From NCBI GenBank assembly GCA_013286805.1, contig JABDEY010000014.1, positions 1-38,074 of the forward strand: a stretch of DNA of 38,074 nt, read 5' to 3'. The DNA comes from Bacteroidota bacterium. Lineage in GTDB: Bacteria > Bacteroidota > Bacteroidia > JABDFU01. The position numbers and the translations under genes were made by a program. The notes beneath the pieces are model-generated. The model worked only from the letters and a program-made list of their open reading frames with translations, was not told where the DNA came from and did no database searches. This document shows positions 5,636-34,700 of this stretch, one piece after another. The number at the start of each line of letters is the position of its first letter. Within the stretch, counting starts at the first letter, position 1.

Positions 5636-5735
5636 GTTTTGGGCCATATTATAATGGCTAATATCGTGCGCATTATAGGTACTTAATGGCTACTATAGTA
5701 GCCATTATAAATTAACGAAAAATCGACTTGGTTCC
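5636..5735. repeat. Dispersed ~100-bp palindromic intergenic element, copy 1
   Basis: gttttgggccatattataatggctaatatcgtgcgcattata...aatggctactatagtagccattataaattaacgaaaaatcgacttggttcc; contains the perfect palindrome AATGGCTACTATAGTAGCCATT; aligns with copies at 26629, 29473 and 34567. Confidence 0.92.
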
Positions 5736-5808
5736 CGCGAAAAATCGACTTGGTTCCATCAGCTTCCGTTACACTTGCTACCGTCGGTGAAAGCATCAGG
5801 CTCTCCCC

Positions 5809-8800
5809 CTAAAAGTATGCCCGCACCTGTGCTCCCCCTGTATTCACCACATTCGAACCGGATGACTTTCTCCCGTCATAGTTGAAGCTGATCGTCAGGT
5901 TGTGCGCCAGATTCCGCTGATAAGTAGCATTCCAGGTTACATTTAGCCCCGGCCTCAAAGCTTCCAGCATTTCATAAGCTACCGGAGTCGTCGGATCATC
6001 ATTATAGGTCAATTGAATAAAATTCACCTTTGCGCCAAAGCTTCCCTTTTGCAAAACGTTGTAGCGCAACTCTAGCCCGTAGTTCTGCTGAATGGATTTT
6101 TGAAAAGCTGAATCCCCCACGTTCTCTTTATTCACAAACTTCAGGATCAGACTGACCCGGAATTTCGTATTCGGCTGATAGCTGATTTTTGGTTCCACAC
6201 CGGAATACAACACATCAAAATCACGGGTTGCGAAAAACTGGGAATTGCTGTAATGCTCCCCGTCATTCAGGCCAAGGTTAAGGCTGAAAGCCCTTGTAAT
6301 ATTCCAGCGAATTTTCACCTCCTTCAAAATAGCTAACCGGGAATCCAATCCATCCGTAAGGTCTGTAATGGTCCGGACATCCTGGTAATTAAAATCAATG
6401 CCGTATTTGGAATTCAGCTGATTAAAAAACAGCGTGCTTCTGAAAGAAGAGGTAAGTGACTTCATGGAAGTATCACTGCCCGGCTGATAGACAGGGTTGT
6501 AGGCATGATCCAGATTATCTTCCGTAGTCTTTTTATCTACCCGGTAGGACGTCTGATCTGAGAATAATGCAATGATTTTTTTTATCCCCTTTTTACCCGA
6601 CCATACAGCAGCAGGCCTGATGTTAAAAGACTCGCTGAACTGATTCGTGAACACAGGGGTCATCTGGTTCGTTGGGGTATAGATCTTAATATAATCTGCC
6701 TGATCCTTATACGTGGCAACCTCAAACTCATTCAGTTGTTTAATTCCATCATGGTTATAATCTACCCATTGATAAACTCCTGTACCATCAGGCACCTGAA
6801 CATAAGTAAATTCCTGTTTCACCTCCTGTCCGGACCCAACTTCGTAAAACACATTGTTTGTCAGCAGGCCATGGCTCACGTTCAGAGTGTGCTCAATACG
6901 GCCCAATAAAGTCTGATCAGGCTTGATCTTTGAAATGAGCGTATCCAGAATTTCAAGTGTCCGATAAGCGGAAGTAATGCTAAGCAGGTTATTACGGTTC
7001 TTCAGAAAACGTATATTAAAAGCTGCTTCCTGTGCATAGGTGCTTTTTTTAAAGGCATTTCCTCCCGTCTCTGCCCCATAATCAGTTCGCTGCTTATAGC
7101 TTAAAGTGGTTTTCATTTTGGATGTATCTGAATTCGAGATGAAACCCGTCCATTCGAAAAAACCCGCACTGCTCACTGACAAGGTATCTGTTCCCCTGTT
7201 CCTGACCTGGTTATGTTCTTCCTGTTCACGGATGCCGAAAGTCAGGAGTTTAAAGCGCTGCGTTGCAACTCCCTTGTGCCGCAGAAAGGAAGTGTTCCGG
7301 GCGCTAGCAGAATTCATCAGGCTACCGTCAAAACTCATTTTAAATGTCTTGGTGGTAACCCCGCTTACTAATGATTGTTTATAGGCATTGTAGTTGGATC
7401 CTTCCAGAAATGTATTAATGGAATAGCCCAGCATAAATAAATTAGGTTTGGTAAGTGTTGCTCCTGCACCAAACAGATTCTGGTCCGCAAACTGAGCGGT
7501 GCCGATCCGATTCCAGTCCCTCTCAAACTCAATGGAACGATAGCGTTCGATGGTCTGGAAATTTTGCTGTAAGTATTCATAATTGACATTCGACACCAAT
7601 TTCAGGCTTTTAGATGCATTTTTTGTGGAATCGTTAGCAGCTCTCCAGGTCTGGACATTATCCACACTTGCATGAAAGGCAGTACCTACATCCGTTGATT
7701 TATCCTTTGTTGAAAATGTATTGATATTATTATTCGACAGAGCCCCCTCTACCTTTACCATTGTATTTGCATTCAATTTATAATCAGCCCCCAACGTCAC
7801 TAATTGCTGACTTTTGGGTGCAATCAGTTGTATCACCGGCTCAAAATTTCCCTGCGGCACACAATTTACGGGAGCCACCCATTGAAATACATTCCCATTC
7901 GCTGCCGAAGCTACCTGCCTGTAATTACCCTGTGTGACTTGCGAAAACTTAAGCTGGAACTTCGCCTTTGTAGAATCCGTTGAATACCTGTAGAAAATGA
8001 CATGAATAGGACCAGGACCGCAGATGGCCATCATTGTGTCTATTTTCTGATAAAGCACCAGAGAACCTGACCAGGCAACACTGTCCACTCCCGGGTAAAC
8101 GGCCTTGGACATATTATTCCCCGCATTGGCCAGAACAAGTTTTTCAGAATCCGTCAGCTGCTGAAGCACAGGCTTGTTCTTATTATCCTCTTCCGAATAT
8201 GCATTGAAACGCAGGGCCAGGTTACCCTTTTTGTATTCATCACCGATGTGATATAACGATCGTGCATAGTTGTTACTGGAATACTGAAATTCAACTGTTA
8301 TGCGGGAATCCTTCGTGATCATACGTTTGGCCGTAAATGTGATTTGGGCTGTGTTATAATCGATGGTATAATCATTGTCCTGCCCTCTGACCACGGGAAA
8401 CCCATCTATATAAACCTTCTCTGTTCCGGAAAGTACAACTACAAATTGCTCACCGGCATTTCCAGTTAAAAAATAAGGCCCCTGGTTCCCATCAATACCC
8501 TGAATAAGATTTCTTCCATACATACCCCTTGAAATACCTGCACTGCCGGTAATGGTCATGATTCCCATTTTAGAAGAATCCTTCTCCCCGGGCTGGACAG
8601 GAACCTTAGTAGTAAAATTAGCCCCCTGCGCCTTTTTGTGGAACCGCATGAAATAGCTGGCAGGGTTGGCTATTTCAAAATCTCCTGCAATCAGTTTTGA
8701 ACGTTTATCATTTATCTGGATGAACACCTTATCAAAATCCTGCAACTGCTGAGTAGTTCCTTCCGCCTGAATAGGGATATTATTATCCGTAGCCGCCAAT

Positions 8801-9405
8801 AAGATATTTACATTATCACTTAGTTTACCTGCAACCTGAAGATTCAGATTGGAATTTACAGCCAGATCCTGGTTACTGCCAAAAGTCACCCCACGTGAAA
8901 TACTGCCGTTCTTGGTAAGACCATCCGTTTTGAACAGATCATTGGAAGGCTGTGCGACAGAATACTGAAAGGGGTTCAGCGCCCCGTTTTTATCGGGCCG
9001 GAGCTTATTCATGTCTTTGTGTTGTACCACTTCCTCCAGATTAAACGGGAAAACACGGTATGAAAACAATAAGGTGTCCACAGAAATACCCTGAAGTCTG
9101 ATTTTTTTACGATTCAGATAAATCAGGGCTTTGGGATTGTCCACACGAAAAAAGGAAGTATCGATTAATTGTTTTGCAGGATTTGTAATAACAACACTCA
9201 AAGGAATAAAGCTCAAGGTATCCAGACGTATCGTGTCTGATAACACACGCACCAGCTTTGAACGGATATTGCTTAGGCTTTGCGATTGGCCGGTATTCCG
9301 TGGTACAGCCTGTGCCTGTGCCTGTGCCCGACCGACAGAAAGCAATGCAACGCTAAGTAACAGGAAAAATCCTGCGTACAGTTTGAATTTTCTAACTTTT
9401 CCCAA
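5809..9405 (-). CDS. Large outer-membrane beta-barrel-like protein (1198 aa) at the end of the RND operon
   Basis: Signal peptide LYAGFFLLLSVALLSVGRAQAQ; many alternating beta strands; ends in aromatic RAYF. TTG start at 9405 overlaps the tolC-like stop (9392). Confidence 0.75.
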   Translation of the reverse strand: MGKVRKFKLYAGFFLLLSVALLSVGRAQAQAQAVPRNTGQSQSLSNIRSKLVRVLSDTIRLDTLSFIPLSVVITNPAKQLIDTSFFRVDNPKALIYLNRKKIRLQGISVDTLLFSYRVFPFNLEEVVQHKDMNKLRPDKNGALNPFQYSVAQPSNDLFKTDGLTKNGSISRGVTFGSNQDLAVNSNLNLQVAGKLSDNVNILLAATDNNIPIQAEGTTQQLQDFDKVFIQINDKRSKLIAGDFEIANPASYFMRFHKKAQGANFTTKVPVQPGEKDSSKMGIMTITGSAGISRGMYGRNLIQGIDGNQGPYFLTGNAGEQFVVVLSGTEKVYIDGFPVVRGQDNDYTIDYNTAQITFTAKRMITKDSRITVEFQYSSNNYARSLYHIGDEYKKGNLALRFNAYSEEDNKNKPVLQQLTDSEKLVLANAGNNMSKAVYPGVDSVAWSGSLVLYQKIDTMMAICGPGPIHVIFYRYSTDSTKAKFQLKFSQVTQGNYRQVASAANGNVFQWVAPVNCVPQGNFEPVIQLIAPKSQQLVTLGADYKLNANTMVKVEGALSNNNINTFSTKDKSTDVGTAFHASVDNVQTWRAANDSTKNASKSLKLVSNVNYEYLQQNFQTIERYRSIEFERDWNRIGTAQFADQNLFGAGATLTKPNLFMLGYSINTFLEGSNYNAYKQSLVSGVTTKTFKMSFDGSLMNSASARNTSFLRHKGVATQRFKLLTFGIREQEEHNQVRNRGTDTLSVSSAGFFEWTGFISNSDTSKMKTTLSYKQRTDYGAETGGNAFKKSTYAQEAAFNIRFLKNRNNLLSITSAYRTLEILDTLISKIKPDQTLLGRIEHTLNVSHGLLTNNVFYEVGSGQEVKQEFTYVQVPDGTGVYQWVDYNHDGIKQLNEFEVATYKDQADYIKIYTPTNQMTPVFTNQFSESFNIRPAAVWSGKKGIKKIIALFSDQTSYRVDKKTTEDNLDHAYNPVYQPGSDTSMKSLTSSFRSTLFFNQLNSKYGIDFNYQDVRTITDLTDGLDSRLAILKEVKIRWNITRAFSLNLGLNDGEHYSNSQFFATRDFDVLYSGVEPKISYQPNTKFRVSLILKFVNKENVGDSAFQKSIQQNYGLELRYNVLQKGSFGAKVNFIQLTYNDDPTTPVAYEMLEALRPGLNVTWNATYQRNLAHNLTISFNYDGRKSSGSNVVNTGGAQVRAYF

Positions 9406-10759
9406 TATAAAAAGCTATGATCCGTTCTTGCAGCATAAGACCAATGACAGACTGGGTTTTATTCTCCTGCGCCTGCAGCAGGTTAAGTTGGGCATTCACG
9501 AGTTCAATAAAGGTAGCAGAACCTAAATCATAACGTCCCTTGATGATCTCAAAGGCGCCCTGAGCAGCGACAATCCCTTTATCAGAAGTCTCCACCTGCT
9601 GAACGGCAGATGTATAATCTCCAAGGGCTTGTTTGATGTCGGTTTTGATCCCGATTTGCAAATCCTCATAATCAATTCGTGCATTATCAAGAGCTATTTT
9701 ACCCAGACTAACATTCGTTCGTGTAACATTCTTGTCAAAGATATTCCAGGTTGCATTTAAGCCAGCTATTCCATAAACCTGTCCCAACTGAGTTCCGAAA
9801 GCTGTCTGTGTGGGTGGCAGGGCGGGCACATCATTCAGCGAAAGCCGGTAGTAGTAACCTCCAGTTGAATAGACTCCGTAATTAAATCCGACTTTGGGCA
9901 GGTAGCCGCTGCGGTATTTCTCCAGATTCTGTTCTGCCACATCCATAGCTAATTTCCCGGCTTCCAGATCAGCACGACGAACCAAAGCTGTATCAATCAA
10001 TGACTGTTCATTCGCATATCCGGAACTCAACTGTTCCTCACTTAGCGCAAGGTCGGCCAGTTCATAGTGTTCCGCATCAGCGATCCGGAGCTTTTTAAAC
10101 AGGTTTATTTTATCGGTCCGCAATTTATTTTCCGCATTTAATAAAATGAGTTTGTCCTGACTCGTCTGTGCCTGTTGCTGGTACAGATCAGATTTAACTT
10201 TCCGCCCAACCTCCGTAAGTTCCTTCAATTGCGCTTCTCTTTTCACGGAAGTAGTCAGGTTATCCTTTGCGTATGCAGCAATCCTGCGGTCAAGAATCAC
10301 CTGCAGATAAGCCTGGATTACATCAAAACTAATCTGCTGCAGCACACGTTGCAGGCTGAATTGTTGCCCATTTTTTTGCAGAAGGGCAGCCTTCAGTGAA
10401 GCCTTGTCCGCAAACCCGTTAAAAATATTTATGCTGCTTACCAACTGATAATTGTAGCCGCTCTTATTTCCATTCACTAACAAAGGCGTGCCAGACAAAA
10501 ACTCATCTTTCCCTGCAGTATAGTTATAACCCGCACCGGCCGTCAAATCAGGTAAAAATTGTCCGTAACTACCCATTACTTCAACGCCTGCTATTGCAAG
10601 GTTATTGTTCCCCTTTAAGACTTCCGTGGATTTTGTTACAGCCAGTTTTATACAATCGTCCAGAGTCAATACTTTCAGGGAGTCCGCCGGCGCAGCTGAA
10701 AGCAGAACCTGAAAAATAAAAGCAAAAACAACTACTAATACAACTCCCTTGTTGAACAT
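9392..10759 (-). CDS. TolC family outer membrane efflux protein
   Basis: SLKVLTLDDCIKLAVTKSTEVLKGNNNLAIAG; repeated alpha-barrel segments; GRYDLGSATFIELVNAQLNLLQAQ. Confidence 0.92.
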   Translation of the reverse strand: MFNKGVVLVVVFAFIFQVLLSAAPADSLKVLTLDDCIKLAVTKSTEVLKGNNNLAIAGVEVMGSYGQFLPDLTAGAGYNYTAGKDEFLSGTPLLVNGNKSGYNYQLVSSINIFNGFADKASLKAALLQKNGQQFSLQRVLQQISFDVIQAYLQVILDRRIAAYAKDNLTTSVKREAQLKELTEVGRKVKSDLYQQQAQTSQDKLILLNAENKLRTDKINLFKKLRIADAEHYELADLALSEEQLSSGYANEQSLIDTALVRRADLEAGKLAMDVAEQNLEKYRSGYLPKVGFNYGVYSTGGYYYRLSLNDVPALPPTQTAFGTQLGQVYGIAGLNATWNIFDKNVTRTNVSLGKIALDNARIDYEDLQIGIKTDIKQALGDYTSAVQQVETSDKGIVAAQGAFEIIKGRYDLGSATFIELVNAQLNLLQAQENKTQSVIGLMLQERIIAFYIGKS

Positions 10760-10823
10760 CTCACAAAAAAATTAATTTTTCCTTACCGATCACCGTTTGC
10801 TAATAACCGATCACCAGTTACCC

Positions 10824-11912
10824 CTACTTCAAAATCCTCACCTTTTGCCCCTCCTCCACGCTCTCCCCCAGATTAAGTGCCACCTGTTCCCCTTCTTTCA
10901 ATCCGGAATTAAGAACCAATTTCTCACCCGTATTTTCCGCAATCTTTATTTCCCTGTAACGAATCCGGCTGCTGTCATCCACAACCGGAACAAAATATTT
11001 CGCACCTCTTACTACCAATGCCTCGGAGGGTAATTGTAATTTATCAGATCCCGGAATCTGCACTTTAACCGTCACATAACTACCGGGTAGCAGAATGTTC
11101 TTCTCATTGTCAATATCAATTTCCACCGTCAGCATTCGCGTTCGCTGATCGAGTTCCCCGGTGGTGCGGGTAACAGACGCTTTCAAATTAAATTCCGGGT
11201 GATCAGGCAGTGTAATCGTCACCGGATAACCCGGCTTGATATAATCAGCGTCTTTCTGTTCCACATAAATATAGGTTCTTATTTTGTTCAGCTGAGCAAT
11301 CGTCACCACTGGCTGCGAACTCGTCTGGGAATTGGAAGCATTCTGAACCAGTGAGCCCGGATCGGCAAAGCGTGCAGTAATGGTACCGCTGAATGGAGCC
11401 TTGATAGCTTTATAATCCATTTGTTCTAACAGTGATTTCAAATTGGCTTCCCCCATCTTCACATCCGTCTCCGTCTTTTCCTTATCCTCTTTGGAAATAT
11501 ACTCCTTACCGAGCAGGGCCTGATCCCTTGTCAGAATTATTTTTTTATTTTCCAGATCAGCCTTTCCTGCATTATAAGCCTGATCTATCTCGGGGCTTAT
11601 AAGTGTCGCCAGCAATTGACCTTCAATAACTCTATCCCCTTTATCCACCAGCATCTTGTCAATGTAACCACTGATTTTAGCATACAGGGTAACATTCAGG
11701 TAGGGAGAAGTTTCTCCAACATACGTCAACTCCCTTGCGCCGGCACCCGCAGCCGCTTTCACCACTTTCACCACGGGCCCTGCATTTGCCTTAGCCAGCC
11801 GCTGTTTCGCTTCCGACTCAACGCTGTTGGAACGCTGCATAAACAAAAATGCAATTCCTGTACCCACCACCAGAATCAACAAAACACTTCCAATAACCAA
11901 TCTATTTTTCAT
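10824..11912 (-). CDS. Efflux RND transporter periplasmic adaptor subunit (MFP/HlyD-like)
   Basis: Start revised to the ATG at 11912 (MKNRLVIGSVLLILVVGTGIAF); YAKISGYIDKMLVDKGDRVIEGQLLATL; MDYKAIKAPFSGTITARFADPGSLV. Overlaps the RND gene end by 11 nt. Confidence 0.93.
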   Translation of the reverse strand: MKNRLVIGSVLLILVVGTGIAFLFMQRSNSVESEAKQRLAKANAGPVVKVVKAAAGAGARELTYVGETSPYLNVTLYAKISGYIDKMLVDKGDRVIEGQLLATLISPEIDQAYNAGKADLENKKIILTRDQALLGKEYISKEDKEKTETDVKMGEANLKSLLEQMDYKAIKAPFSGTITARFADPGSLVQNASNSQTSSQPVVTIAQLNKIRTYIYVEQKDADYIKPGYPVTITLPDHPEFNLKASVTRTTGELDQRTRMLTVEIDIDNEKNILLPGSYVTVKVQIPGSDKLQLPSEALVVRGAKYFVPVVDDSSRIRYREIKIAENTGEKLVLNSGLKEGEQVALNLGESVEEGQKVRILK

Positions 11913-14900
11913 TTGCTTCTTTTTCAAATTGTTCATCCAATGCCTGTGCGGTTGGCATTGCTTTGCGCAAAACAGCATAAACCAATGGCACCACAAATAA
12001 GGTTACAACAGTTGCCAATAGCAGGCCGCCAATTACCGCCCTTCCCAAAGGGGCGTTTTGTTCGCCCCCTTCACCGGCACCAATAGCCATGGGAATCATT
12101 CCCAAAATCATTGCGATGGCAGTCATCAGCACAGGACGCAACCTGGTTTTTCCTGCTTTCAAAGCTGCATCAAAGGCATTCAGGTTTTCATCCACGCGCA
12201 AATCATTTGCAAAATTAACCATCAGGATAGAATTTGACACGGCAATACCAACTGCCACAATTGTGCCCATGAGCGACACCACATTAATCGTAGTGCCGCT
12301 AAGTGTCAGCATCCACAATACCCCAACAAGCGCGCCTGGTACGGCAATCATAATAATAAAAGGGTCGAGCCAGGATTGGAACAGCACCACCATAAGCAGA
12401 TAGACAAGTGCCATAGCCAGAATAATCCCAAGACCCAACGTAGAAAACGAAGAGGTCATCACTTCGTTTTGTCCCCTCAGCCGGATACGCATACCCTTTG
12501 GCAATTCCCCCAACTCATTTATTTTTTTCTGAATCTCACCCGCAACCGAACCCAGGTCCCTCCCCTCCACATTCGCATTCACATCCATAATCCGCTGAAC
12601 AGTATAATGGTTTATTACATTAAATTGACTTTGGGAACTGATGGTGGCAATATTACCCAGCGATTGTGACTGGGAAGCAGGTATATCTGTTGGCATCGAA
12701 GCCGTTGTTCTAAGTAAAGCACCTGCACCTGAAGTAATGGAGGTAGACAGAATTTTCTGAACGGAATTTAATTTCTCCATCGGAGTTTTCACCGCAACTA
12801 CATAATTTACACTGTTGACCGGGTTCAGGTAATAGTTGGCCCCCACCAACGCACTGGAAGATAAGGAAATCAGCATATCATTGGCCACATCCCGTTGGGA
12901 AAGGTTCAGGCGGGCCGCCAGCACCCTGTCCACATTCAGTTTAAATTCAGGAAAGTCCAAAACCTGTTTGATATTAACATCCTCCGTCCCGGGAATTTTT
13001 TTTAGCTCATCGCGAAGGCGCTTGGCATAGATATAGGATTTGTAATAATCGGAACATTCAATCTGGACATCAATCGGAGAGGAAAGCCCGAAGTTCAATA
13101 CCTGGGAAACAATATCGGCGCTTTGAAAATAAATGCCACATCCCGGAAAATTATTCTCCAGATCTTCCCTGATTTTTTTCATGTATCCGGTGGTAGGTGC
13201 ATGCCCAGGGTTGAGAGAAATAAGAATTTCCCCATCCATCCCGCTGGCATTATCCGTACCTACAAAACCAAGATTAAAAAAAGAAGGTACACCAATCATG
13301 TCGTTGACTGTTTGCAATTCCGCAGCGGGTATAATTTTCTGAATTCGTTTTTCCGCAGCATCAACAAGCTTTTCTGTTTCTTCAATGCGTGTACCCGAAG
13401 GCGACCTGAAATGCAGTTTCATCAAACCGCTGTCAGTAGCAGGAAAGAAATCGGTGCCAACAATTTTTAACAAAAACAAAGAACCTCCCAAAACAATCGC
13501 TGCCACCGGCAGAATAATTTTTTTATTCAACAGAAAGCTCCGAAGTATTTTACCGTATCCTTCCCGGAATTTATCAAAACCTTTGTCTCTGGCAATGTTG
13601 AACTTTTCACCTAAGCGTTTCGAAATACTCCTTCCCGAATACTTTTCACCGGAATGTAAATGCTCATTTTCCATCAGGATACGTGCCAGAATAATCACCA
13701 GCGTCCTCGAAAGAATATAAGATGTAATCATCGCAATAACCACCGCCCATGCCATAGGGGTGAACAGATACCTGGAAGGCCCGGTCAGCAACACCACCGG
13801 AAAAAAGACAATGCAAATTGACAGCGTTGCTGCAAGGGCCGGAACTGCAATCTGCTGTGCACTTGTTAGAATAGCAACCGTAAGAGGCTTGCCAAGAAGC
13901 CGGTTCCGGTGAATATTTTCCACTTCCACAGTCGCATCATCTACCAGCATACCAATGGCCAGGGAAAGTCCGCCCAATGTCATGATATTCAGCGAGCCTC
14001 CAATGAGTTTCAAACCAATTATCGCCACCAAAATACACAGAGGTATGGAAGTACAAACAATAATAACACTGCGCCAGCTTCCGAGAAAAAACAGAATCAT
14101 CAGGGACACAAGAATCGAAGCCGCAATCGCCTCATGCAATACATTATTAATGGAACTGCGTACAAATATACTTTGGTCAAAATCGATTTTCAGATCCAGC
14201 CCTTCGGGGGCAGTTTCTTTGATAATGGGAATCATGCTTTTTGCCGCTTCTACCACCGCAAGCGTAGATGCCCCGGCCTTCTTGAGTACGACCAGATAAG
14301 CAGCACGTCCTCCGTTCACCCGCACAATATTCGTCTGATCCGCATAGGCATCCGCCACTCTCGCCACATCCCCAATAACAACCGGTTCTCCGTTAATCAC
14401 TTTAATTGGAATATCCTTAAAATCCTTCACCTGATCCGGGCTGGAGTTCAGACCAATATTATATTCCCTTTTACCAATCCGTGCCGTACCCGCCGGGACG
14501 ATTACATTCGATGCCTGAATGGCACTCAGCACATCAGAAGGAGAAACACCTTTTGCCCGCATGGCATCCGGATTCAGGTCAATATTGATTTGACGGCCTT
14601 TACCTCCGTATGGAGCAGGTGTTGACAAACCAGGCACCGTGAATAAACGGAGCCGGATAAAGTTCAGTGCATAGTCGAACAATTGAGACTCCGGTAAGGT
14701 TTTGCTGCTGATCGTAAGTTGGGAGACAGGAACATTGGAAGCGTTAAACTGTATAATTGCCGGAGGCTGCATACCCGGAGGCATGCTGCGCAACGAAGTA
14801 CTTGCGACAGCCGTCATTTGGGCAATAGCGGCACCAATGTCAGCACCTTCCTGAAAATAAACCTTCAGCACACCTATGCCCGGAATAGATTGGGACTCAA

Positions 14901-15141: not shown

Positions 15142-15247
15142 AAATGAATACGCTTAATAACTTGCAGGGTAAATTTAATCAAATTGTTTCTGACCCTGAA
15201 ATAGTCTATTTTTAAACTATTTCAGTAAACAATAAAACACATTCTAC

Positions 15248-17761: not shown

Positions 17762-17876
17762 GGATGATAAAGATTTTTCCAAAATAAAAACACCAATTTT
17801 AATAATTTTTCATTTTTACCAGAAATTAACAAGGTTTGGCAAGGGAATTGAGTATATTTAGTAAATACACCGAATT

Positions 17877-18446: not shown

Positions 18447-18537
18447 ATTATTATTCGCAGCATTTATTTAAATTTTTCGGAGCTCATGAATCCTCCATTC
18501 GCAGGATTTCGCTTATTCACCAATGCGCTAATTAGGA

Positions 18538-19674: not shown

Positions 19675-19778
19675 AAACATCCACAAAGCATTTTTGGTCT
19701 AAAAATTACTATATTTATACTGACACTGTTTACTTTAAAAAAGTATACTTACTTATATATAAACCTAAATTACTGTTT

Positions 19779-21868: not shown

Positions 21869-21941
21869 ATATGCCAATTCACTATAGCCTTTCGGGAAAT
21901 CTAAATTGTGCAGCACTCAAGAATTCAAAAAAAAGCAAAGC

Positions 21942-22034
21942 ATGAATAATTGCGAAAGGGCAGACAGCCTGAGGCTGTTTGAGCCAGACAGGGTGAAAGC
22001 GAATTCAGAAAAAACAAAAGACAAGTATGAATAA
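21942..22034 (+). CDS. Candidate 30-aa leader ORF overlapping the start of the M43-type gene
   Basis: ATG at 21942 to TAA at 22032-22034: MNNCERADSLRLFEPDRVKANSEKTKDKYE*. Its stop overlaps the downstream ATG (22027). No evidence of expression. Confidence 0.3.
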   Translation: MNNCERADSLRLFEPDRVKANSEKTKDKYE

Positions 22035-24093: not shown

Positions 24094-24182
24094 TTTTCAA
24101 AAACCTCCTGACTTCGACCTGTTTTTTTTGTATATTCGTTATACTTAATTTTATCAGGTTTACGAACGCTAAGCTCTATTTC

Positions 24183-26618
24183 ATGCAACACAAATTACGT
24201 CTTCGCCTTGTTCTGGTTCTTTCAGGTATAACCTGGATGTATTGCGCATCTTTAACTGCACAGAACTTGTCTTCTCAATCAGCCAGGAACTTATCTTCTC
24301 AAAATGTGGCTATCAGCAACAAGGCTACCCGCACTTTGCTGGCTAATTCACTGAACGATTCCCTGGCCGGCTTTAATGAACCGGAAGTTCTAAGATTATA
24401 TAACCTTGAACCGAACAGACATATTACCTTCCCTGCTTTTCTCGGCAAAGCACAAAAAGCCTACATCGCTCAAAAATATTATTCGAATGATTCCCGGAAC
24501 CTCCGCATTATCCCAAATACAGCTCAACCACTGAATACTGCTTTCTGTACCAATTCCGATTTTGCACAGGGAACATTCGCAAACTGGACAGGATGTTCCG
24601 GCTGTAACCCCGATCCAAACGGAGGTGTATGTACATCCGGAGGAGTATGTACTACTCCGGGAATAGTATCTGGTAATCAGGACATTATGTCGGGCTTTGG
24701 AATTGACCCATGTGGAAATTTTCCGGTTGTCTGTCCCGGATTTACCTATTCAGCAAGGCTGGGAAACGCACTTCCTCCAGGCGGAACTGCTACAAATTTT
24801 GAGCCGGGTGCAGTAGCACAGGAGCTGAATTATTCTTTTACCGTACCTGTTTCCGGAAATAATGTTTTTACCTACAATTATGCTGTGGTCTTTGAAAATC
24901 CGGCCGGGCATACTGCTATACAGGCACCCTATTTTCGAGCAGGCTTATATACTGCAAATGGAGATACCGTTCCCTGTTCTTACTACAATTATATTGCAAC
25001 GACTAATAACTCTGGCTTTGCAACTAACGCGGCAACAGCATGTAACCCGCTTTATGACAGCGGCGATCCGGTAGAATATAAACCCTGGACACCTGTATCC
25101 ATTGACCTTGCACCTTATGCCGGTCAGACATTATACGCAAGGTTTATCTCCTCCGATTGTTCGCTGGGTGGACACTACGGCTATGCTTATATTGCCTGCA
25201 CCTGTGCTCCGGTTGGAATTACACAATCAGATAGTCTGACGAATTCCTCCCCTGCAACTTTGTGCGCCCCTACCGGAATGGCATTGTACAAGTGGACCGG
25301 TCCGACTGGATCTGGTACAACAGGCCTTACAACGCAATGTATCAATACAACTTTTCCAGGGAACTATTCCGTGGCCTGTGAAACCTATACCGGATGTCAG
25401 AGCAATTTGAGTATCGCAATAATCAAACATCAAGGTGCCTTTACGGCATCTGCAACAAGTACATGCCCGGGTGATTCCATACAGTTTAGCTGTGTTGACA
25501 ATGCCAAACCTTCAAAATGGAGTTGGACCTTTACTGGTGGAAGCCCGGGAATCTCAGCGCTTCAAAACCCCAAAATAGCATACCCTGCCCAGGGTTCATA
25601 TCCCGTCAAAATGATTGTTACGGATACGATCGGTACAGATACCGTAAGCTATACAAATTACATTACGGTTCAGTCGGCGCCCATTACTCCCGTAATAAGC
25701 AATAGCGCGGCCAGTGGGCCATTCTGTGCGGGAGATTCTTTAACATCTAGCTATACAACCACTAATCAATGGTATTATAACGGTGCAATTATGAGCGGAA
25801 CGACTACTCAAACAATCTATCCCGCCAATTCCGGATTTTATTCTGTAACCTACACAAACGTAAATGGATGTGCAGCAGGCTCTGCACCTGCTTCTCTAAA
25901 CAACATTCAACCTATACCAACTGCGCTGATTACTTCCTCCGGCACCGTTGTATGTGGAGGAGATTCAGCTTTACTCATAGCATCCGGAACAGGAACGTAT
26001 TCCTGGTCCACGGCTCAGACATCAGACTCCATAGTAGTAAAACCGCTCAGCACTTCATCCTATACCCTAACGGTAACCGCCAGCAATGGTTGTACTGCTT
26101 CAACAACCGCTTCCATTACTGTAAATTCCACAGCACCTCCCATTCCTGTTGCCCAACTAAACAGTGGTGTTCTTGCGTCTTCCTCTTCGACCGGAAATCA
26201 ATGGAATCTGAATGGCACTCCTATTCCGGGAGCAACGGCACAGTTTTACACGCCCACTCAGAGCGGCTTTTATTCAGTTACTGTAACCGGAACCAATAGT
26301 TGTTCATCCACATCGAACCTTATAAACTGCACTGTTACCGGGATAAATTCTGCCGTGCCGAATAGCTCTTCCCTGCATGCGTACCCTAATCCATCCGTCG
26401 GAAAATTGACAGTTGATTTGGGTGAAACTTCAACGGGCTTAATGAATCTTAGCATAACCAATACGCTGGGACAACTTATTTATTCGAAATTGATCCCTGT
26501 TGGAAGCAAAATTCTGGAACTTGATTTGTCCGAATCTGTTAATGATGGAATATACAGCCTGAAGGTTCATGGTAATTCAGGCATCCAGATACAGCGGGTT
26601 ATATTCTCAAAGCCTTAG
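24183..26618 (+). CDS. T9SS type A sorting domain protein with PKD/Ig-like domains
   Basis: PKD-like CPGDSIQFSCVDNAKPSKWSWTFTGGSPGISALQNPKIAYPAQGSYPVKMIVTD; C-terminal LHAYPNPSVGKLTVDLG...GIYSLKVHGNSGIQIQRVIFSKP. Confidence 0.88.
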   Translation: MQHKLRLRLVLVLSGITWMYCASLTAQNLSSQSARNLSSQNVAISNKATRTLLANSLNDSLAGFNEPEVLRLYNLEPNRHITFPAFLGKAQKAYIAQKYYSNDSRNLRIIPNTAQPLNTAFCTNSDFAQGTFANWTGCSGCNPDPNGGVCTSGGVCTTPGIVSGNQDIMSGFGIDPCGNFPVVCPGFTYSARLGNALPPGGTATNFEPGAVAQELNYSFTVPVSGNNVFTYNYAVVFENPAGHTAIQAPYFRAGLYTANGDTVPCSYYNYIATTNNSGFATNAATACNPLYDSGDPVEYKPWTPVSIDLAPYAGQTLYARFISSDCSLGGHYGYAYIACTCAPVGITQSDSLTNSSPATLCAPTGMALYKWTGPTGSGTTGLTTQCINTTFPGNYSVACETYTGCQSNLSIAIIKHQGAFTASATSTCPGDSIQFSCVDNAKPSKWSWTFTGGSPGISALQNPKIAYPAQGSYPVKMIVTDTIGTDTVSYTNYITVQSAPITPVISNSAASGPFCAGDSLTSSYTTTNQWYYNGAIMSGTTTQTIYPANSGFYSVTYTNVNGCAAGSAPASLNNIQPIPTALITSSGTVVCGGDSALLIASGTGTYSWSTAQTSDSIVVKPLSTSSYTLTVTASNGCTASTTASITVNSTAPPIPVAQLNSGVLASSSSTGNQWNLNGTPIPGATAQFYTPTQSGFYSVTVTGTNSCSSTSNLINCTVTGINSAVPNSSSLHAYPNPSVGKLTVDLGETSTGLMNLSITNTLGQLIYSKLIPVGSKILELDLSESVNDGIYSLKVHGNSGIQIQRVIFSKP

Positions 26619-26628
26619 CCTAAAACCA

Positions 26629-26732
26629 GGTTTGGGGCGATTTTATAATGGTTATTATAATGCGCATTAAAGGCCGCTAATGAATACTAGAGTAGCCATT
26701 ATAAATTGGAGAAAACAGACTTGACGTGGTCC
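26629..26732. repeat. Dispersed ~100-bp palindromic intergenic element, copy 2
   Basis: ggtttggggcgattttataatggttattataatgcgcattaaaggccgctaatgaatactagagtagccattataaattggagaaaacagacttgacgtggtcc. Confidence 0.9.
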
Positions 26733-26758
26733 ATCTGCATTTGATATACTTGCGTAAA

Positions 26759-29422
26759 TTACTCCTTCACAATTTTTGCCTGTAGTAAACCTGTCCCGGA
26801 TTTTGATTGCAGAAAATAAATGCCAGAAGGCAAATTGCTTAAATTGATCTGCCTTTGAGCATCCTTTGAAATCTCCTGATAAACAAGTGCGCCCAAGGTA
26901 TTATAAATCGAAATCAGTCCTAACTCTCCGGAAGATTGCACAGTGATAGAATTTGAAGAAGGGTTTGGAAAAATCTTAAAACCTGCATTGCCAGCAACAA
27001 CCGATGAAATTCCAGATGCAGGGCTGATTTGTGTTTCCCAAAGTCCTCTGCCAAAAGTCCCTGCTCTTAATAAGCCGGCACTCGTCTGAATATCCAAAGA
27101 AAAAACCATTACATCGGGCATGCCGGTATTGAAAGAAACCCAACCTCCACCCTGCGTATTATCAGTATAGAAAACACCAATATCTGTCCCAACAAAAATT
27201 CTGTCCGGATTGGTAGTTTCGTCATACACAATACAGTCAACCGGGACATTGGGCAAATTTCCTGTAACATTTGTCCAAACTGAGCCACCATTTGTTGTTT
27301 TATAAACTTTATAGCTGGTATTGTATCCGGAGAAAGTTACCCATACAGTCAGTGGATCCGAAGCCTTAACTGCAATTGCAGAAATATAGGCGGAGGCCAC
27401 AGGTAATGAACCAGTAATGTTGGACCATGTTTTTCCCCCGTCAGAAGTTTTAAAAACAAACGTACCTGGAATAGTATTGTATCCCGTATTCGTACCCATT
27501 CCAACATATAAATAATTGGAATTGGAAGGAGCAATAGCCATGGCCATTACTAAATCAGTACTTGTACCGGTAAGATTAGTGCTGATCTTAGTCCAGCTCG
27601 TCCCCTGATTGATTGTTTTCCAGACATCGTTGTACCCGGCAAAAAGCGTAGTATTTGTATTTTTATCAATGACATAAGGAGTAACCCATGCACCAGAGAC
27701 CTTCCCGCTATCAGGTGTAATCACACTAAAAGCAGTACCACCATTCGTAGATAAGAAAAGTTTTCCATCATACTCAGCTGAATAGACCGTGCTCGCATTG
27801 GAATAATCCACAATGGTCATCATTCCATCACCTGAAATATCCTGTGACCATGTACCGGTATTAAACAAGTTACTCCCATTATCCTGCTCACCGGAAGAAA
27901 CGAATGTACTATTCGTCTGAGCTGAACTGATACTATACATTTCCATGATGGTCAGACCTGCACTCAGATCAGTCCATGCAGTTCCCGAGTTTGTCGACTT
28001 GAATAATCCTCCATCACATCCCGCCAGAATAGTGGAAGAACTACCCGGCATAAAAGCCAATTTGTGAATGTCTTCGTGAACATAAACAGGGTTGTTATGA
28101 AGTACCGTATACCTCGATTTGTTTGTCCAGGTACTACCCCCGTCTGTCGAACTCCAGATATTGATACCACCTGTAAAAATCGCATTTGCATTTGCCGGAG
28201 ATGCAATAATACTCATGTCTCCCCATCCTTGTCCGCCTGCGCCAACACCAAGCGGTGACCAGTCAAGAATATTAGGAGTAGCAGACATAGAAACAAATGT
28301 TTTTCCTCCATCAACAGATCGGACAAGAGCATGAAACCCTGAGTTTGCAGAATCAGATTCCAGGGCATACAGGTAATTTGCATTAGCCGGCGTGACAGCC
28401 AGATTAATTCTATTCACCCCGGCAGCAGAATAAACAGTCGAAAACGTATTACCTGAATCTTTTGAACTATAAATGGTTTTATAGCCGCTGGCATAGATCA
28501 TAGCGACATTGCCAGGCTGAAACTGAATATCATAAATACGGTGCCCGGTCAGGGGAGTCGACCAGGTTGCACCACCATCCAGCGACTTACTGATACCATT
28601 GTAATGTCCTACCAATAACATCTTGTGATTAGCAGGGTTGATGACTATTTTATTCATGTACAAACCCTGATTCGTCTGCCATTTAAAACCCGTCACATTC
28701 CAGGTAGCTCCCCCATCAGTGGATTTCATGATGCCTGTCGAATAAGTGTAAATCACATCTCCGTCCCCCGTGGCAATATAAATAATACTGGTGTCGGTCG
28801 GGTCAATGGCAATATCGGTCACACCCAATGTTGACAGATAATCCGAAGTTGGAGTCCATGTAATACCACCGTTATGCGTTTTCCATAATCCGCCTGAAGG
28901 AGAGCCAACGTAAATCGTGTTGGTATCCAATGGATTGACAGCCAGACAATTTATCCTTCCTTCACCGCCCTTGGCAGGAATAGCAGCGGGGCCCATAGAA
29001 GTCCAGTTGGCACTAAGGGAGTTCAGATTACTCATTCTGCTGCTGCTACCAGTGCTGCTGTTATTCGAATTGCCTCCATCCAAACGAAGTTTATTTCTCT
29101 CCTTATGTGCGATCATCGGGTCCGGCATTTCTCCGGAGGGAGATATCCTGTGAGAAGCGAACCATTCCCAACGCTTGTACTGAATGTATTCACCAACATT
29201 GCCACCTTCATCATCATCCATTGAGTTCCTGTTCTGCTTTAAAACATCAAAGCCTTTTGCATTCCAATACTCATTAAATGACTTTTGTACTTCAAAAAAA
29301 TCAGGATTGGCCTGATCAGCAAATTTATTCATCCAGGGCTGGGCCAGGCTTTGATCCACAGGAAAAACAAACAATACCAGAAGCAGTAATCTGAATAAAT
29401 AAGAAGCAGGCATTCCCGTCAA
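26759..29422 (-). CDS. T9SS type A sorting domain protein, BNR/sortilin-like beta-propeller
   Basis: SGGLWKTHNGGITWTP, STDGGATWNV, SLDGGATWST, TSDGGKTWSN, TTNGGSVWTN; C-terminal FKIFPNPSSNSITVQ...GIYFLQSKSGTGLLQAKIVKE. Confidence 0.9.
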   Translation of the reverse strand: MTGMPASYLFRLLLLVLFVFPVDQSLAQPWMNKFADQANPDFFEVQKSFNEYWNAKGFDVLKQNRNSMDDDEGGNVGEYIQYKRWEWFASHRISPSGEMPDPMIAHKERNKLRLDGGNSNNSSTGSSSRMSNLNSLSANWTSMGPAAIPAKGGEGRINCLAVNPLDTNTIYVGSPSGGLWKTHNGGITWTPTSDYLSTLGVTDIAIDPTDTSIIYIATGDGDVIYTYSTGIMKSTDGGATWNVTGFKWQTNQGLYMNKIVINPANHKMLLVGHYNGISKSLDGGATWSTPLTGHRIYDIQFQPGNVAMIYASGYKTIYSSKDSGNTFSTVYSAAGVNRINLAVTPANANYLYALESDSANSGFHALVRSVDGGKTFVSMSATPNILDWSPLGVGAGGQGWGDMSIIASPANANAIFTGGINIWSSTDGGSTWTNKSRYTVLHNNPVYVHEDIHKLAFMPGSSSTILAGCDGGLFKSTNSGTAWTDLSAGLTIMEMYSISSAQTNSTFVSSGEQDNGSNLFNTGTWSQDISGDGMMTIVDYSNASTVYSAEYDGKLFLSTNGGTAFSVITPDSGKVSGAWVTPYVIDKNTNTTLFAGYNDVWKTINQGTSWTKISTNLTGTSTDLVMAMAIAPSNSNYLYVGMGTNTGYNTIPGTFVFKTSDGGKTWSNITGSLPVASAYISAIAVKASDPLTVWVTFSGYNTSYKVYKTTNGGSVWTNVTGNLPNVPVDCIVYDETTNPDRIFVGTDIGVFYTDNTQGGGWVSFNTGMPDVMVFSLDIQTSAGLLRAGTFGRGLWETQISPASGISSVVAGNAGFKIFPNPSSNSITVQSSGELGLISIYNTLGALVYQEISKDAQRQINLSNLPSGIYFLQSKSGTGLLQAKIVKE

Positions 29423-29472
29423 TTGTTTTTATATTTCGTTATACGTGAAAATGCGTTAAAAGGTTATTGACT

Positions 29473-29572
29473 GTTTTGGGCAATATCATAATGGTTAATA
29501 TCCCACGCATTAAAGGCAAGAAATGGATACTATAGCAGTCATTATAAATTGGCAAAAAATGGACTTGATTCC
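29473..29572. repeat. Dispersed ~100-bp palindromic intergenic element, copy 3
   Basis: gttttgggcaatatcataatggttaatatcccacgcattaaaggcaagaaatggatactatagcagtcattataaattggcaaaaaatggacttgattcc. Confidence 0.92.
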
Positions 29573-29577
29573 ACCTG

Positions 29578-30336
29578 TTACACCGCCATCTTATTCAATG
29601 CCCTCACCGCCAGGCTTAATGCAACCAAAGAAAATACAAAAATCACACCAAAACCAAAGAGCACAATATGGCTTCCAAAATCTCCTGCAAACAGACTGCG
29701 GGAAGCTTCCACTGCATAATAAAAAGGATTAAAGTGAGCCGCAATTTTAATCCAGCGCGGCGCAAAAGAAATAGGCAACATAATACCCGAAAGCAGCATC
29801 ACCGGAAGGTAAAAAGTATTGGTAATGGAAGCCAAAATCCCTTCGTCCTTAACCGATAAAGAAATGGCATAAGAAAGCGAAGACATAGTAATTCCAATCA
29901 TTAGTATCAGTACAAGGGTCAGCGCTATTCCAATCAACGATACATGCAATCCCAAAAACAGAGCAATTACCAGTAAGATACAGGCTTGAAAAAACAAAGT
30001 CAAAAGCTGGTTACAGATCAGGCTCAGAATGACACCCACTCTGCTGGTAGGCGTTACAAGCCATCTCGCAATAATGCCGGTACGTATCTCATCAATAAAA
30101 CTGAAGCCTGCAAAAAGACCGCCCATAGCCATAATCACCAGCATCCCCGGAACAAAAACCCGGACAATTTCCCCGGTCGGCAAAAGGGCTGTTGCTCCCA
30201 TACTTTTAAGCAATGGCATATATAATATCAGATATAAAACAGGCTGCATCAGCCCCATCAGGAGCCAAACAGGAGCCCTCAGGGCTTTTCTCAGGTGTCT
30301 CCTGAAAAGGAGGTAGATGTCTTTAAAAAAAATCAT
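29578..30336 (-). CDS. ABC transporter permease (ABC-2 type)
   Basis: MQPVLYLILYMPLLKSM...FVPGMLVIMAMGGLFAGFSFIDEIRTGIIARWLVTPTSRVGVILS...LPVMLLSGIMLPISFAP. Confidence 0.92.
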   Translation of the reverse strand: MIFFKDIYLLFRRHLRKALRAPVWLLMGLMQPVLYLILYMPLLKSMGATALLPTGEIVRVFVPGMLVIMAMGGLFAGFSFIDEIRTGIIARWLVTPTSRVGVILSLICNQLLTLFFQACILLVIALFLGLHVSLIGIALTLVLILMIGITMSSLSYAISLSVKDEGILASITNTFYLPVMLLSGIMLPISFAPRWIKIAAHFNPFYYAVEASRSLFAGDFGSHIVLFGFGVIFVFSLVALSLAVRALNKMAV

Positions 30337-30339
30337 TTT

Positions 30340-30447
30340 AATTCAAAACATACTTTCAATTCAAAAAATCATTTTAATTCAAAACATACTTTCAATTCAA
30401 AACATACTTTCAATTCAAAAATTCATTTTAATTCAAAACATACTTTT
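30340..30447. repeat. 18-bp tandem repeat, 6 units, abutting the permease start codon
   Basis: aattcaaaacatactttc / aattcaaaaaatcatttt / aattcaaaacatactttc / aattcaaaacatactttc / aattcaaaaattcatttt / aattcaaaacatactttt. Confidence 0.95.
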
Positions 30448-30491
30448 GAGTTCAGTCATTCCATTGTTCGATTCAAAATCCTTTAATTAAT

Positions 30492-31469
30492 CTAATTTTT
30501 ATCCTCCCTCAACGAACGGCCCGTCTTTTGTAAAAACACATCATCCAGAGAGGGTCGTGAAAGCCCTATGGTGGAAACAGGAATTTTTTCCTTATCCAGA
30601 ACTCTTAATACCTCAGCAATCATCCCTCCCCCGTCCTGCACGAACAAATACAACTTATTTTCCTGAGCAAATATTTTTTTTATGTTCTGCATTGATTCAA
30701 AGAGCAATTTCGCCTGCTCCAACTCCTTGTCCATTGCAAAATCCACAATGATACTCTCGGAACCAATTTCACGCTTCAATTCCTGAGGAGTCCCCTGCAC
30801 GACAATTGTCCCATGATCAATAATAGCAACCCTGTCACAGAGATGATCTGCCTCTTCGAGGTAATGAGTCGTCAGAAAAACAGTCATCCCCTCCTTTTTC
30901 AATCTGAGTATTTCTTCCCAGAAATAAGCCCGGCTTTGGGGATCAAGCCCGGTAGTAGGTTCATCAAGAAAAACAAGGGAAGGGCGATGAACAATTCCAA
31001 GTGCCAGTTCCAGTCTTCTTTTTTGTCCTCCGGAATACGTATTGGCTTCCCTTAAAGCAAATTCCTTCATCTGGAAACGGCCGATTAATTCATTGGCCTT
31101 GCTGACTGCATCCGTTGCTGAAATTCCATACAACCTTGCCTGCAGCACCAGGTTTTCGAATGCACTGCTAAACCCATCCGCACCACCCGCCTGAGAAACA
31201 TAACCAATCTGCTCCCTCACCTTTTCCGGCTGCGTCAGCAGATCAAATCCGGCAACAACAGCCTTCCCGTCAGTAGGAGCAAGAAGTGTAGTGAGCATAT
31301 TAAGTGTAGTACTTTTGCCGGCCCCGTTGGGTCCAAGGAAACCAAAAATTTCTCCCTGCTTTACCTCCAGGTCAACTCCTTTCACAGCCTCCACCAATTT
31401 AATTTTCTTCCCTCTCCCGGAAGAAAAAGTTTTGCAAAATTTGGTAGTCTTTAGTATTGCCTCGTTCAT
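30492..31469 (-). CDS. ABC transporter ATP-binding protein (DrrA/CcmA-like)
   Basis: Walker A GPNGAGKSTT; signature YSGGQKRRLELALG; Walker B PSLVFLDEPTTGLDP; C-terminal domain with SRPSLDDVFLQKTGRSL. Confidence 0.96.
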   Translation of the reverse strand: MNEAILKTTKFCKTFSSGRGKKIKLVEAVKGVDLEVKQGEIFGFLGPNGAGKSTTLNMLTTLLAPTDGKAVVAGFDLLTQPEKVREQIGYVSQAGGADGFSSAFENLVLQARLYGISATDAVSKANELIGRFQMKEFALREANTYSGGQKRRLELALGIVHRPSLVFLDEPTTGLDPQSRAYFWEEILRLKKEGMTVFLTTHYLEEADHLCDRVAIIDHGTIVVQGTPQELKREIGSESIIVDFAMDKELEQAKLLFESMQNIKKIFAQENKLYLFVQDGGGMIAEVLRVLDKEKIPVSTIGLSRPSLDDVFLQKTGRSLREDKN

Positions 31470-31545
31470 TACCCAAAGTAAATAAAAAAAACAAAGCGCA
31501 AAGGATTAATCCAATGCGCTCTGCTTAAAAAAAATCCAATCTATA

Positions 31546-32997
31546 TTATTCCTTACAGATTTTCTGATAGAATCTACCGGTTCCGGTTGTCACTTCAATC
31601 AGGTATATCCCACTTGCAAAACTGCTGATATCAATCGTTTCAGTGAGCGTTCTCACATTGCCGGAATAAATCTGTGTACTCAGCAGCCTACCGCTTAAAT
31701 CGTAAACTGCAAGCTTTTCAAGTGCATCGGAAATGTTCGTCAAGTTCACATTCATCTGGTTCCGGGCAGGATTAGGGTATATGCTGATTGCCCCCGCATC
31801 TCCCTCATTTTTTACACCAAGAGATTTCTTCTGGGATGCAAAGGTCATGTTATCAATTTTCAGGACCGATCCTGCATACTTTGTATATTGTGTATTTGAA
31901 GTATCATTGTTATGCCAGGAGGAAGAAATATTAATCATTACCGTATCGGGGGTATTGCCGGTATTAAAAGCCAAACTCATATTCTTATAGCTTGTATTTG
32001 TTGTAAAAATAGAAATACCCGTGCCATAAATATTCTGTCCGTTTTTCTTAAAACTCAGGGAAATATTGGCAGTATCGCCGGCGGTTGGCGAATATTTATA
32101 GCCGAATTCAAGCGTATCTATTGCAAGGGAATATGGAAAGCCGCCCAGTTCAGTACACATACCGGAACAATTCGGATAGAAGCCAGTGCCCGCCTGACCC
32201 TGCCCATTGCCATTGCCATTGCTATTGTTTAGTGTTTGCAGTTCAAGGGCATAACTTCCGCTCTGAGCATCTGTAGTCCGGATCGCATTTGGATAGTTGA
32301 TAATCCATCCGGGAGGAAAAAGCACGGAATTGCTTGTCCAGTTTTCAAAATCTCCATTCATTTCTGCCGGTTGAATACTGACTCCTGTAAACGTAACACT
32401 GTCAATCACCAATGTGCTTCCCGGATTTCCACCTTTTTTCCCTCCTCCATTATTATGAAGAATTCCAATGGACGAAACTGCTCCAAAGACAACCGTATCC
32501 GGAGTCACAGTTAGCGAATGAGAAGGAAAATAAGAGCGAAGCGTATAGGAAGTAACAGTTTGCGGAAGTGTAATAAGAAAGGAATCTATCGAGGAGCCCG
32601 CTTTCTTAAAAATGACAAGTACAGCAGCCGTGTCAGTACCGGAAGGAGTATACTTATAATAAAACCGCATCCCGGTAGGTTTTTGAGCGTAGGGTATTCC
32701 GCCAAAAATTCCATTACCATTACCGCCTACATTCGCGTTAATAAAATAGGCACCTTCCACTCCATTTACAGAACTGATGGTTTTCAACATGACCCCATAT
32801 AATCCATGGAATCCTGTGGTTTGCGTCACATTGGCCGCAATCCCCTGAGGGGCCTCCTTATCGTTGGATGAATTATAATATTGGGGGTCATTCCAGGTAG
32901 TTGTATTCCAGAATTCAAATCCACCATCCGGAATAGACTGGGCAGCAAGCGCAGCGGCAAAGCAACCGGTAACGCTTAAGAGTAGTAATTTTTTCAT
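31546..32997 (-). CDS. T9SS type A sorting domain protein with two tandem related N-terminal domains
   Basis: Signal peptide; PDGGFEFWNTTTW... and MNGDFENWTSNSVLFPPGW... repeats; C-terminal ISIYPNPARNQMNVNLT...GIYLIEVTTGTGRFYQKICKE. Confidence 0.88.
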   Translation of the reverse strand: MKKLLLLSVTGCFAAALAAQSIPDGGFEFWNTTTWNDPQYYNSSNDKEAPQGIAANVTQTTGFHGLYGVMLKTISSVNGVEGAYFINANVGGNGNGIFGGIPYAQKPTGMRFYYKYTPSGTDTAAVLVIFKKAGSSIDSFLITLPQTVTSYTLRSYFPSHSLTVTPDTVVFGAVSSIGILHNNGGGKKGGNPGSTLVIDSVTFTGVSIQPAEMNGDFENWTSNSVLFPPGWIINYPNAIRTTDAQSGSYALELQTLNNSNGNGNGQGQAGTGFYPNCSGMCTELGGFPYSLAIDTLEFGYKYSPTAGDTANISLSFKKNGQNIYGTGISIFTTNTSYKNMSLAFNTGNTPDTVMINISSSWHNNDTSNTQYTKYAGSVLKIDNMTFASQKKSLGVKNEGDAGAISIYPNPARNQMNVNLTNISDALEKLAVYDLSGRLLSTQIYSGNVRTLTETIDISSFASGIYLIEVTTGTGRFYQKICKE

Positions 32998-33158
32998 GCG
33001 TTTTAATTTTATTATTTAGTATATTTATCTCATTACGTTTTATTTCGGACATGATTTGTTCTGAATTAAAACCGGAAGTGCCGACAAACTTACCTGTTCA
33101 ATTCTCTGCTGCCGATGATATACATCATTAGCAATGGTGATTAAGACCAGTCTAATTT

Positions 33159-34535
33159 ATGAAAAAAAAATCTTTATTTGCGTATTATAGGGTTTGCATA
33201 TCCGTTTTTGCCCTCCTGAACTGTAATTCAGTGGCAGCTCAGACCGATTCCTTATTTACCGGGTATAACAGCACCTTCTACCCTTCTGTTCTTCTGGCAG
33301 CAAAAGGTGTGGCCAGACCCTTTCTCCTCATGCAAAAGTATACCACCCTATCCGGTGCAAGTATTTCGGATTCAACTATCAGTTATAAAGGCGCTCGTTA
33401 CATGGTGCACGATTACTACCTGAATCCAACGACTGCTTATTATGTCAAAAGCAGCCAATACAGTGCGTATGACATTAGCGGTTTCAGCACTATCTGGCCC
33501 ACACAATTTCCGAATATACTGTTCAAAGCAACAGATACTTCCTATAATTGCCAATCCGATTGTGTAGGATACCTTACCCGGCTATTGTCTGCCACTGGCA
33601 CAGCTACAACGAATGGGAATGCGTACCTCAATATCATTAATACGGTCAAAACGGCCAATGTCTCGCATTTCGCCGCAATAGGTTATGTGTCCACCGCCTA
33701 TTCCTTTGCGGTAGCATTTCCAACCTTTCCTGCATTAGTCAGCAATGGATGGCAATACATCTCCGGCAATGCAGAAACAAGTCTGGTGAATACGTATAAT
33801 CATACTATTCAAAGCTCATTGGGCACCTATACTGGTGTTCGTAAAGGAGGATTCGCCCAGGCCCTTCCCGGAGACGTATTGGCTTTTGGTTATTCTGCCT
33901 CCTCTTCCTCCAATGGACACATAATGGTTTTGGAAACAGCCCCGCAATTATTGAATGCTGACAGTATGCAGTATTATTTTCCTTCTCAGTCGCTCGCACA
34001 AGCTAAATCCTTATTAAACACACATCATATGTACAGTGTTCCGGTTTTCGATTGTTCCGGTCAGCAGGCACATTTCAGAGACAGCCGTACACTAACAAGC
34101 GGAATAGGTCATGGAAAATTATTGATGCTGACTTCGCTTTCGGACGATGCCCCGACCGGATTTATTTTTGATTCTTTGCAAGTGACATACAGTACCCCTC
34201 ACATGGATACCCTTGGCACTTCTGTTTATGCAATTTCTGTAGGACGTTTTGTTATAGCTACCACAACTGCTGTTCAGCCGCTTGAGGATCGGACTACTGT
34301 TTTTCAGGTTTATCCAAATCCAGCCAAAGGAATTATTAATATAGCTTTAAATAAACCTCAGCCGGAAAATTCAATTTTAAGAATCACAGATATGTTGGGA
34401 AAGACCGCTAAACAATTCAGAATTGACGATCAGGATTTTACAATAAATGTAAGTGACTTGAAGGAGGGAGTTTATACAATCAGTATCGCGGGTAAGAAAG
34501 GGCTGTCAAACAAGAGACTTGTAATTGTCAGGTAG
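33159..34535 (+). CDS. T9SS type A sorting domain protein, possible NlpC/P60-like (papain-fold) catalytic domain
   Basis: Signal peptide; DCVGYLTRLL, PGDVLAFGYSASSSSNGHIMVLE, VPVFDCSGQQAHFRDSR; C-terminal FQVYPNPAKGIINIAL...GVYTISIAGKKGLSNKRLVIVR. Confidence 0.8.
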   Translation: MKKKSLFAYYRVCISVFALLNCNSVAAQTDSLFTGYNSTFYPSVLLAAKGVARPFLLMQKYTTLSGASISDSTISYKGARYMVHDYYLNPTTAYYVKSSQYSAYDISGFSTIWPTQFPNILFKATDTSYNCQSDCVGYLTRLLSATGTATTNGNAYLNIINTVKTANVSHFAAIGYVSTAYSFAVAFPTFPALVSNGWQYISGNAETSLVNTYNHTIQSSLGTYTGVRKGGFAQALPGDVLAFGYSASSSSNGHIMVLETAPQLLNADSMQYYFPSQSLAQAKSLLNTHHMYSVPVFDCSGQQAHFRDSRTLTSGIGHGKLLMLTSLSDDAPTGFIFDSLQVTYSTPHMDTLGTSVYAISVGRFVIATTTAVQPLEDRTTVFQVYPNPAKGIINIALNKPQPENSILRITDMLGKTAKQFRIDDQDFTINVSDLKEGVYTISIAGKKGLSNKRLVIVR

Positions 34536-34566
34536 TCTCGTTATTACTTTAAAAGTAAAACCATGC

Positions 34567-34665
34567 TATTTTGGGTGATATCATAATGGTTATTATAGTG
34601 CGCATTAAAGGCCTCTAATGGTTACTATAGCAACCATTATAAATTACCAAAAAATCGACTTGGCC
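34567..34665. repeat. Dispersed ~100-bp palindromic intergenic element, copy 4
   Basis: tattttgggtgatatcataatggttattatagtgcgcattaaaggcctctaatggttactatagcaaccattataaattaccaaaaaatcgacttggcc. Confidence 0.92.
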
Positions 34666-34700
34666 CATTCTGATTCAGCCACCTGATTTTGAGACCTAAA

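Follow-up and report, generated by a model that had tools for sequence, protein, structure and literature searches.

The palindromic repeat of about 100 bp that is dispersed through the stretch of Bacteroidota DNA analyzed here (38,074 nucleotides, the window) is probably the front part, leader plus start region, of a repressor gene of the HipB-like (XRE) type that stands alone. Its two adjacent dyads would be twin autoregulatory operators, and the copies without a gene would be deletion derivatives of the complete unit which, in our reading, are kept or tolerated between convergent genes.

The initial annotation described four copies in a single orientation, and we recovered all of them at the same place as members of one family (F1), with copies 1 to 3 matching copy 4 at 82 to 86% (E values of 1e-19 to 1e-22). 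Its distances between the conserved tail and the stop of the facing minus-strand gene are also correct (74, 27, 6, and 36 nt for copies 1 to 4, respectively), as is the absence of a U-tract after the hairpin in every window copy. While the coordinates of the core hold, the left boundary does not, as copies 1 and 4 reach further left than described. The gene is gone from each of the four, and their parts are the following:

5577-5633, plus strand: left extension of copy 1, putatively promoter-proximal, with homology to what precedes the dyads in the intact units of contigs C15 and C70
5634-5735, plus strand: core of copy 1, with dyads at 5652-5675 and 5684-5707 and the spacer at 5676-5683
5714-5757, plus strand: start region of the lost gene in copy 1, tandemly duplicated (2 x 22 bp)
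5750-5812, plus strand: relic of the hipB-like gene in copy 1, 20 codons, (L)VPSASVTLATVGESIRLSP, and then a stop, with about 18 decayed codons of that gene
26628-26732, plus strand: core of copy 2, with dyads at 26646-26669 and 26678-26701, between genes 24183-26618 (plus) and 26759-29422 (minus)
29471-29577, plus strand: core of copy 3, with dyads at 29489-29512 and 29521-29544, between the tandem minus-strand genes 26759-29422 and 29578-30336
34545-34565, plus strand: left extension of copy 4, which copy C7a matches from position -20 (87%, 9e-35)
34566-34677, plus strand: core of copy 4, with dyads at 34584-34607 and 34616-34639, between genes 33159-34535 (plus) and 34701-35390 (minus)

The gene to the right of copy 3 (29578-30336, minus strand) resembles an ABC transporter permease, and its 5' end coincides with a tandem array (30309-30470) of 18-bp repeats of the AAAACATACTTTCAATTC type, located between this gene and an ATPase-like gene.

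Further copies exist beyond the window. In its own genome (G000, 2.3 Mb in 136 contigs, 56% complete), similarity and profile searches, the only means by which copies were located, found F1 on ten contigs: four times in the window, twice on C7, and once each on C28, C125, C26, C15, C41, C70, C48, and C58 (C-numbers designate contigs or copies of this genome). The C58 copy is partial, as it runs into the contig end, and a sequence-only profile search added a right-half copy in C22, which brings the genome to 13 full and 2 partial copies. The same search detected two F1 copies in a genome of the same genus (G001, 65% complete). In one locus of that genome (C9:9273-9380), it is the opposite dyad that has the asymmetric GCGC half-site, as though the two dyads had been inverted together with respect to the ends. 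With copy 4 as the query against 60 genomes, matches appeared only in these two, and strict patterns of F1 or of the helix-turn-helix (HTH) alignment gave no confirmed relatives among GTDB genomes and viral contigs.

The origin of the repeat can be read from C15 and C70, where the tail of the palindrome runs straight into an intact HTH open reading frame of about 122 codons. Both units have positions -72 to 464 (537 bp) in common at 84%, which covers the dyads and the reading frame down to its stop. The first codons of the C15 gene (ATG TTT CCA TCT GAT TCT GAG) are the conserved tail, and the same stretch is found in the gene-less copies with a consensus close to ATGGAC-TGGTTCCATCTG-TTC. The tail pointed out by the initial annotation is therefore real, but it has to be reassigned as the start region of a hipB-like gene. 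Upstream of the dyads, C15 matches copy 1 from position -56 through to 100 (75.8%, 1.9e-24), and by this homology the left extension of copy 1 is a putative promoter region.

The protein encoded by the C15 and C70 type of gene has an HTH domain (Pfam HTH_31 and HTH_3), and its best relative of solved structure is HipB (PDB 9u9g, E value of 2e-12), while against NCBIfam TIGR03070 it scores 34 bits, which is under the cut-off of 71.65. In the loci of other genera that we inspected, the better-matching homologs immediately precede hipA-like genes. No HipA_C domain was detected in the 56% of the genome that is available, and the four hipB-like genes (in C15, C70, C7c, and C4) have unrelated genes as neighbors, without an adjacent hipA. 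With unrelated genes on both flanks, the intact genes are solitary regardless of what the missing remainder of the genome contains. Comparison of the C15 and C70 genes over 100 codons gives a dN/dS of 0.12 at a dS of 0.49, a sign of purifying selection, which means that the protein stayed functional after the two copies split.

Two of these hipB-like paralogs, the intact C7c (C7:30903) and a frameshifted one (C4:44202), are preceded by a second family of leaders (F2), which has a different twin palindrome at the same place, of the type ATAGGTTCA-N6-TGAACCTAT. F2 has nine copies in G000, including those two. Both families follow one layout, in which two dyads of 24 bp are separated by a spacer of 8 bp, with dyad sequences that are unlike each other. 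Within the F2 dyads 78% of the cells pair, compared with 12 to 38% when the dyads are slid, while covariation among the copies does not exceed that of shuffles. A skeleton pattern common to both families was not clearly above control in other members of the genus. At the C4 locus, about five tandem repeats of about 23 bp (GCTTATGAGAGCATCAAAAAACT type), which resemble extra half-sites, lie between the F2 dyads and the frameshifted gene.

Several of the gene-less copies retain pieces of the gene. The relic in copy 1, VPSASVTLATVGESIRLSP, is identical to the C15 protein at 11 of 17 residues (E value of 6e-6 in a single comparison), C125 matches C15 as far as position +138, and in C7a a downstream block of the gene (28 nt at 96%) has been joined over an internal deletion. 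F2 copies C23, C28b, C10, and C2 also carry gene relics, that of C28b consisting of two pieces brought together by a deletion. At least some of the gene-less copies have thus arisen from whole units by deletion. Most F1 copies end near one place (around codon 8), and a short mobile form would account for this as well as independent deletions do.

The palindrome had also been read as a possible hairpin with arms of about 38 bp showing compensatory change, and a structure in the 3' untranslated region was among the functions proposed. Pair counts in the F1 alignment do not support that change: 78.5% of the cells in the long inter-arm hairpin are paired, against 79.0% in shuffles, and 435 of 500 shuffles equal or exceed the observed value. 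Within the right-hand 24-bp dyad of F1, 84.3% of the cells are paired against 81.6% in shuffles (reached by 8 of 500, and by 9 of 500 for the covariation score), to be read with the warning of the covariation tool that related sequences can exceed shuffles without any structure. In the left dyad, which is asymmetric (TAATGGTTA...GCGCATTA), covariation is not clear. Copies 1 and 4, which lie at convergent gene ends, as an RNA hairpin or a bidirectional terminator would, do fold well below their shuffles (z of -3.0 and -3.7), but copy 3 folds no better than its own (z of +0.84), and the F2 example forms local hairpins instead of a long one. No Rfam family matches the window at an E value of 1 or less. 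An intrinsic terminator, that is, a G+C-rich hairpin followed by a U-tract, was considered as well, and there is no terminator-like site at copies 2 to 4 and no U-tract at any copy. Either kind of RNA element is therefore a very improbable explanation of the repeat. Constraint points the same way, as private mutations of gene-less copies are rarer in the half-sites (20 of 647) than elsewhere (61 of 1,055; pooled p = 0.013; F1, p = 0.015; F2, p = 0.24), a modest effect in a set of copies found by similarity, which favors conserved stretches. The lack of covariation in the long stem, its presence in the right dyad, the unfolded copy 3, and the constrained half-sites are together more in keeping with paired binding sites for a protein than with a stem of RNA.

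Placement is biased in the two families taken together. The 21 evaluable copies, tallied by hand and with the HTH gene assigned to the unit, comprise 17 in convergent gaps and 4 in tandem gaps, with no copy in a divergent one, while the background, 38 gaps of 60 bp or more that come from open reading frame calls in the F1 loci and not from curated genes, has 4 convergent, 23 tandem, and 11 divergent (17/21 versus 4/38 convergent; Fisher p = 9e-8). The dispersal, the intergenic position, and the bias toward the 3' side noticed in the window hold genome-wide, with the right neighbor pointing at the tail in 20 of 21 copies. A polar nucleoid or replication motif, also among the candidates proposed, may be involved, but what the dyads occupy is the place of the promoter and operator leader of a HipB-like gene, which the gene-less copies of the window do not reveal. 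GC skew around the copies, taken as a proxy for replication direction, has no consistent sign. REPs, too, lie for the most part in convergent or unidirectional gaps (PMC3733652), so placement alone is no proof of function, and avoidance of promoters would be enough to explain it.

This bias can be read in other ways. The gene-less dyads might form at least two networks of twin operators that differ in sequence and are each served by a solitary HipB-like repressor of their own, in which selected sites across the genome bind the remaining HipB-like proteins and act as transcription roadblocks between convergent genes or as chromosome-organizing sites. The excess of convergent gaps, the better conservation of the half-sites, and the purifying selection on the HTH genes would agree with it. 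Nevertheless, convergent gaps are the safest place for an insertion anyway, the constraint is modest, the background depends on gene calls from the same loci, and two unrelated families of sites for one job would be uneconomical, all of which makes such networks improbable. Somewhat better placed, though still unlikely, is a short mobile element of about 112 bp, of the MITE or REP kind and moved by a transposase in trans, whose overlap with hipB-like gene starts would reflect its origin from such a leader and not a later decay. Copies C26, C125, C7b, and copy 3 of the window start sharply at or near CTGTTTTGGG, most copies end near positions 104 to 111, and the gaps they occupy are also typical of REPs (PMC3733652). 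On the other hand, right ends vary among copies, several of which bear gene relics beyond the short form, and neither clean terminal inverted repeats nor target duplications were seen by eye in the aligned flanks. The proposal of a REP- or MITE-like element stands for dispersal and intergenic position. No Y1_Tnp/RAYT domain (PF01797) was found in G000 or G001 (56 and 65% complete). The window does code for an IS1595-family transposase (464-1402, minus strand; DDE_Tnp_IS1595 and Zn_ribbon_IS1595 domains), which we rejected as the mobilizer since no ends matching the repeat were recognized. When we looked for empty sites through orthologous neighbors in genomes of the same genus, the gene to the right of copy 4 was the only one recovered, and synteny did not extend to the other side.

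We therefore return to the leader of a HipB-like gene as the source of the repeat. An intact unit consists of a promoter-like sequence, a 24-bp dyad, an 8-bp spacer, a second 24-bp dyad, a ribosome-binding and start region, and the HTH gene of about 122 codons. Given their position and the analogy with hipBA, the twin dyads most likely serve as a pair of operators in both F1 and F2. They are spaced by 32 bp, or about three helical turns, and an HTH dimer would bind them and so repress its own gene, in the manner of HipB in E. coli. Units would have been dispersed into the gaps between convergent genes, where most later lost the gene, partly or wholly, by deletion, leaving the dyads and the start region, which is the state of the four window copies. 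F2 would have taken the same course, with operators of another sequence.

The site bound by HipB of E. coli is TATCCN8GGATA, which occurs twice in the published O1O2 oligonucleotide, 28 bp apart (PMC3376134), a distance close to the 32 bp seen here. The system thus resembles hipBA autoregulation in having an XRE-type HipB-like protein with serial palindromic sites in the leader of its own gene, but it differs from it in the absence of a hipA toxin gene, in putative operators unrelated to the E. coli site, and in the many scattered leaders without a gene. It also resembles solitary (orphan) antitoxins, defined as antitoxin homologs without a linked toxin gene (PMC3874152), except that here four paralogs, one of them frameshifted, belong to two multicopy families of dispersed leaders. 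REPs are defined as palindromes of 20 to 40 bp with a GTAG or CGTC tag at one end (PMC3733652). Like REPs and REPINs, our repeats are palindromic, intergenic, and dispersed mainly between convergent or unidirectional genes. In contrast to them, the core is a twin dyad of about 100 bp derived from a gene leader, its ends are CTGTTTTGGG and ATCTGCTTCTG with neither tag, and no RAYT was detected in the two incomplete genomes. MITEs and putative mobile promoters are short, noncoding, dispersed pieces of DNA that may carry a promoter. Our copies are similarly short and dispersed and may carry one too, but they have a decayed gene attached and no recognized terminal repeats or transposase. Dispersed hipB leaders were not found described in the open-licence literature that we searched.

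It is often unclear where the palindromic repeats of bacteria come from. Here, a dispersed family would go back to a definite source, namely the operator-like leader of a solitary gene for an antitoxin-like repressor. A single genome shows intact units, intermediates of deletion, and bare dyads, and it does so for two different dyad sequences. This provides pairs of protein and site that can be tested, and raises the question of what role a HipB-like protein under purifying selection may have without HipA.
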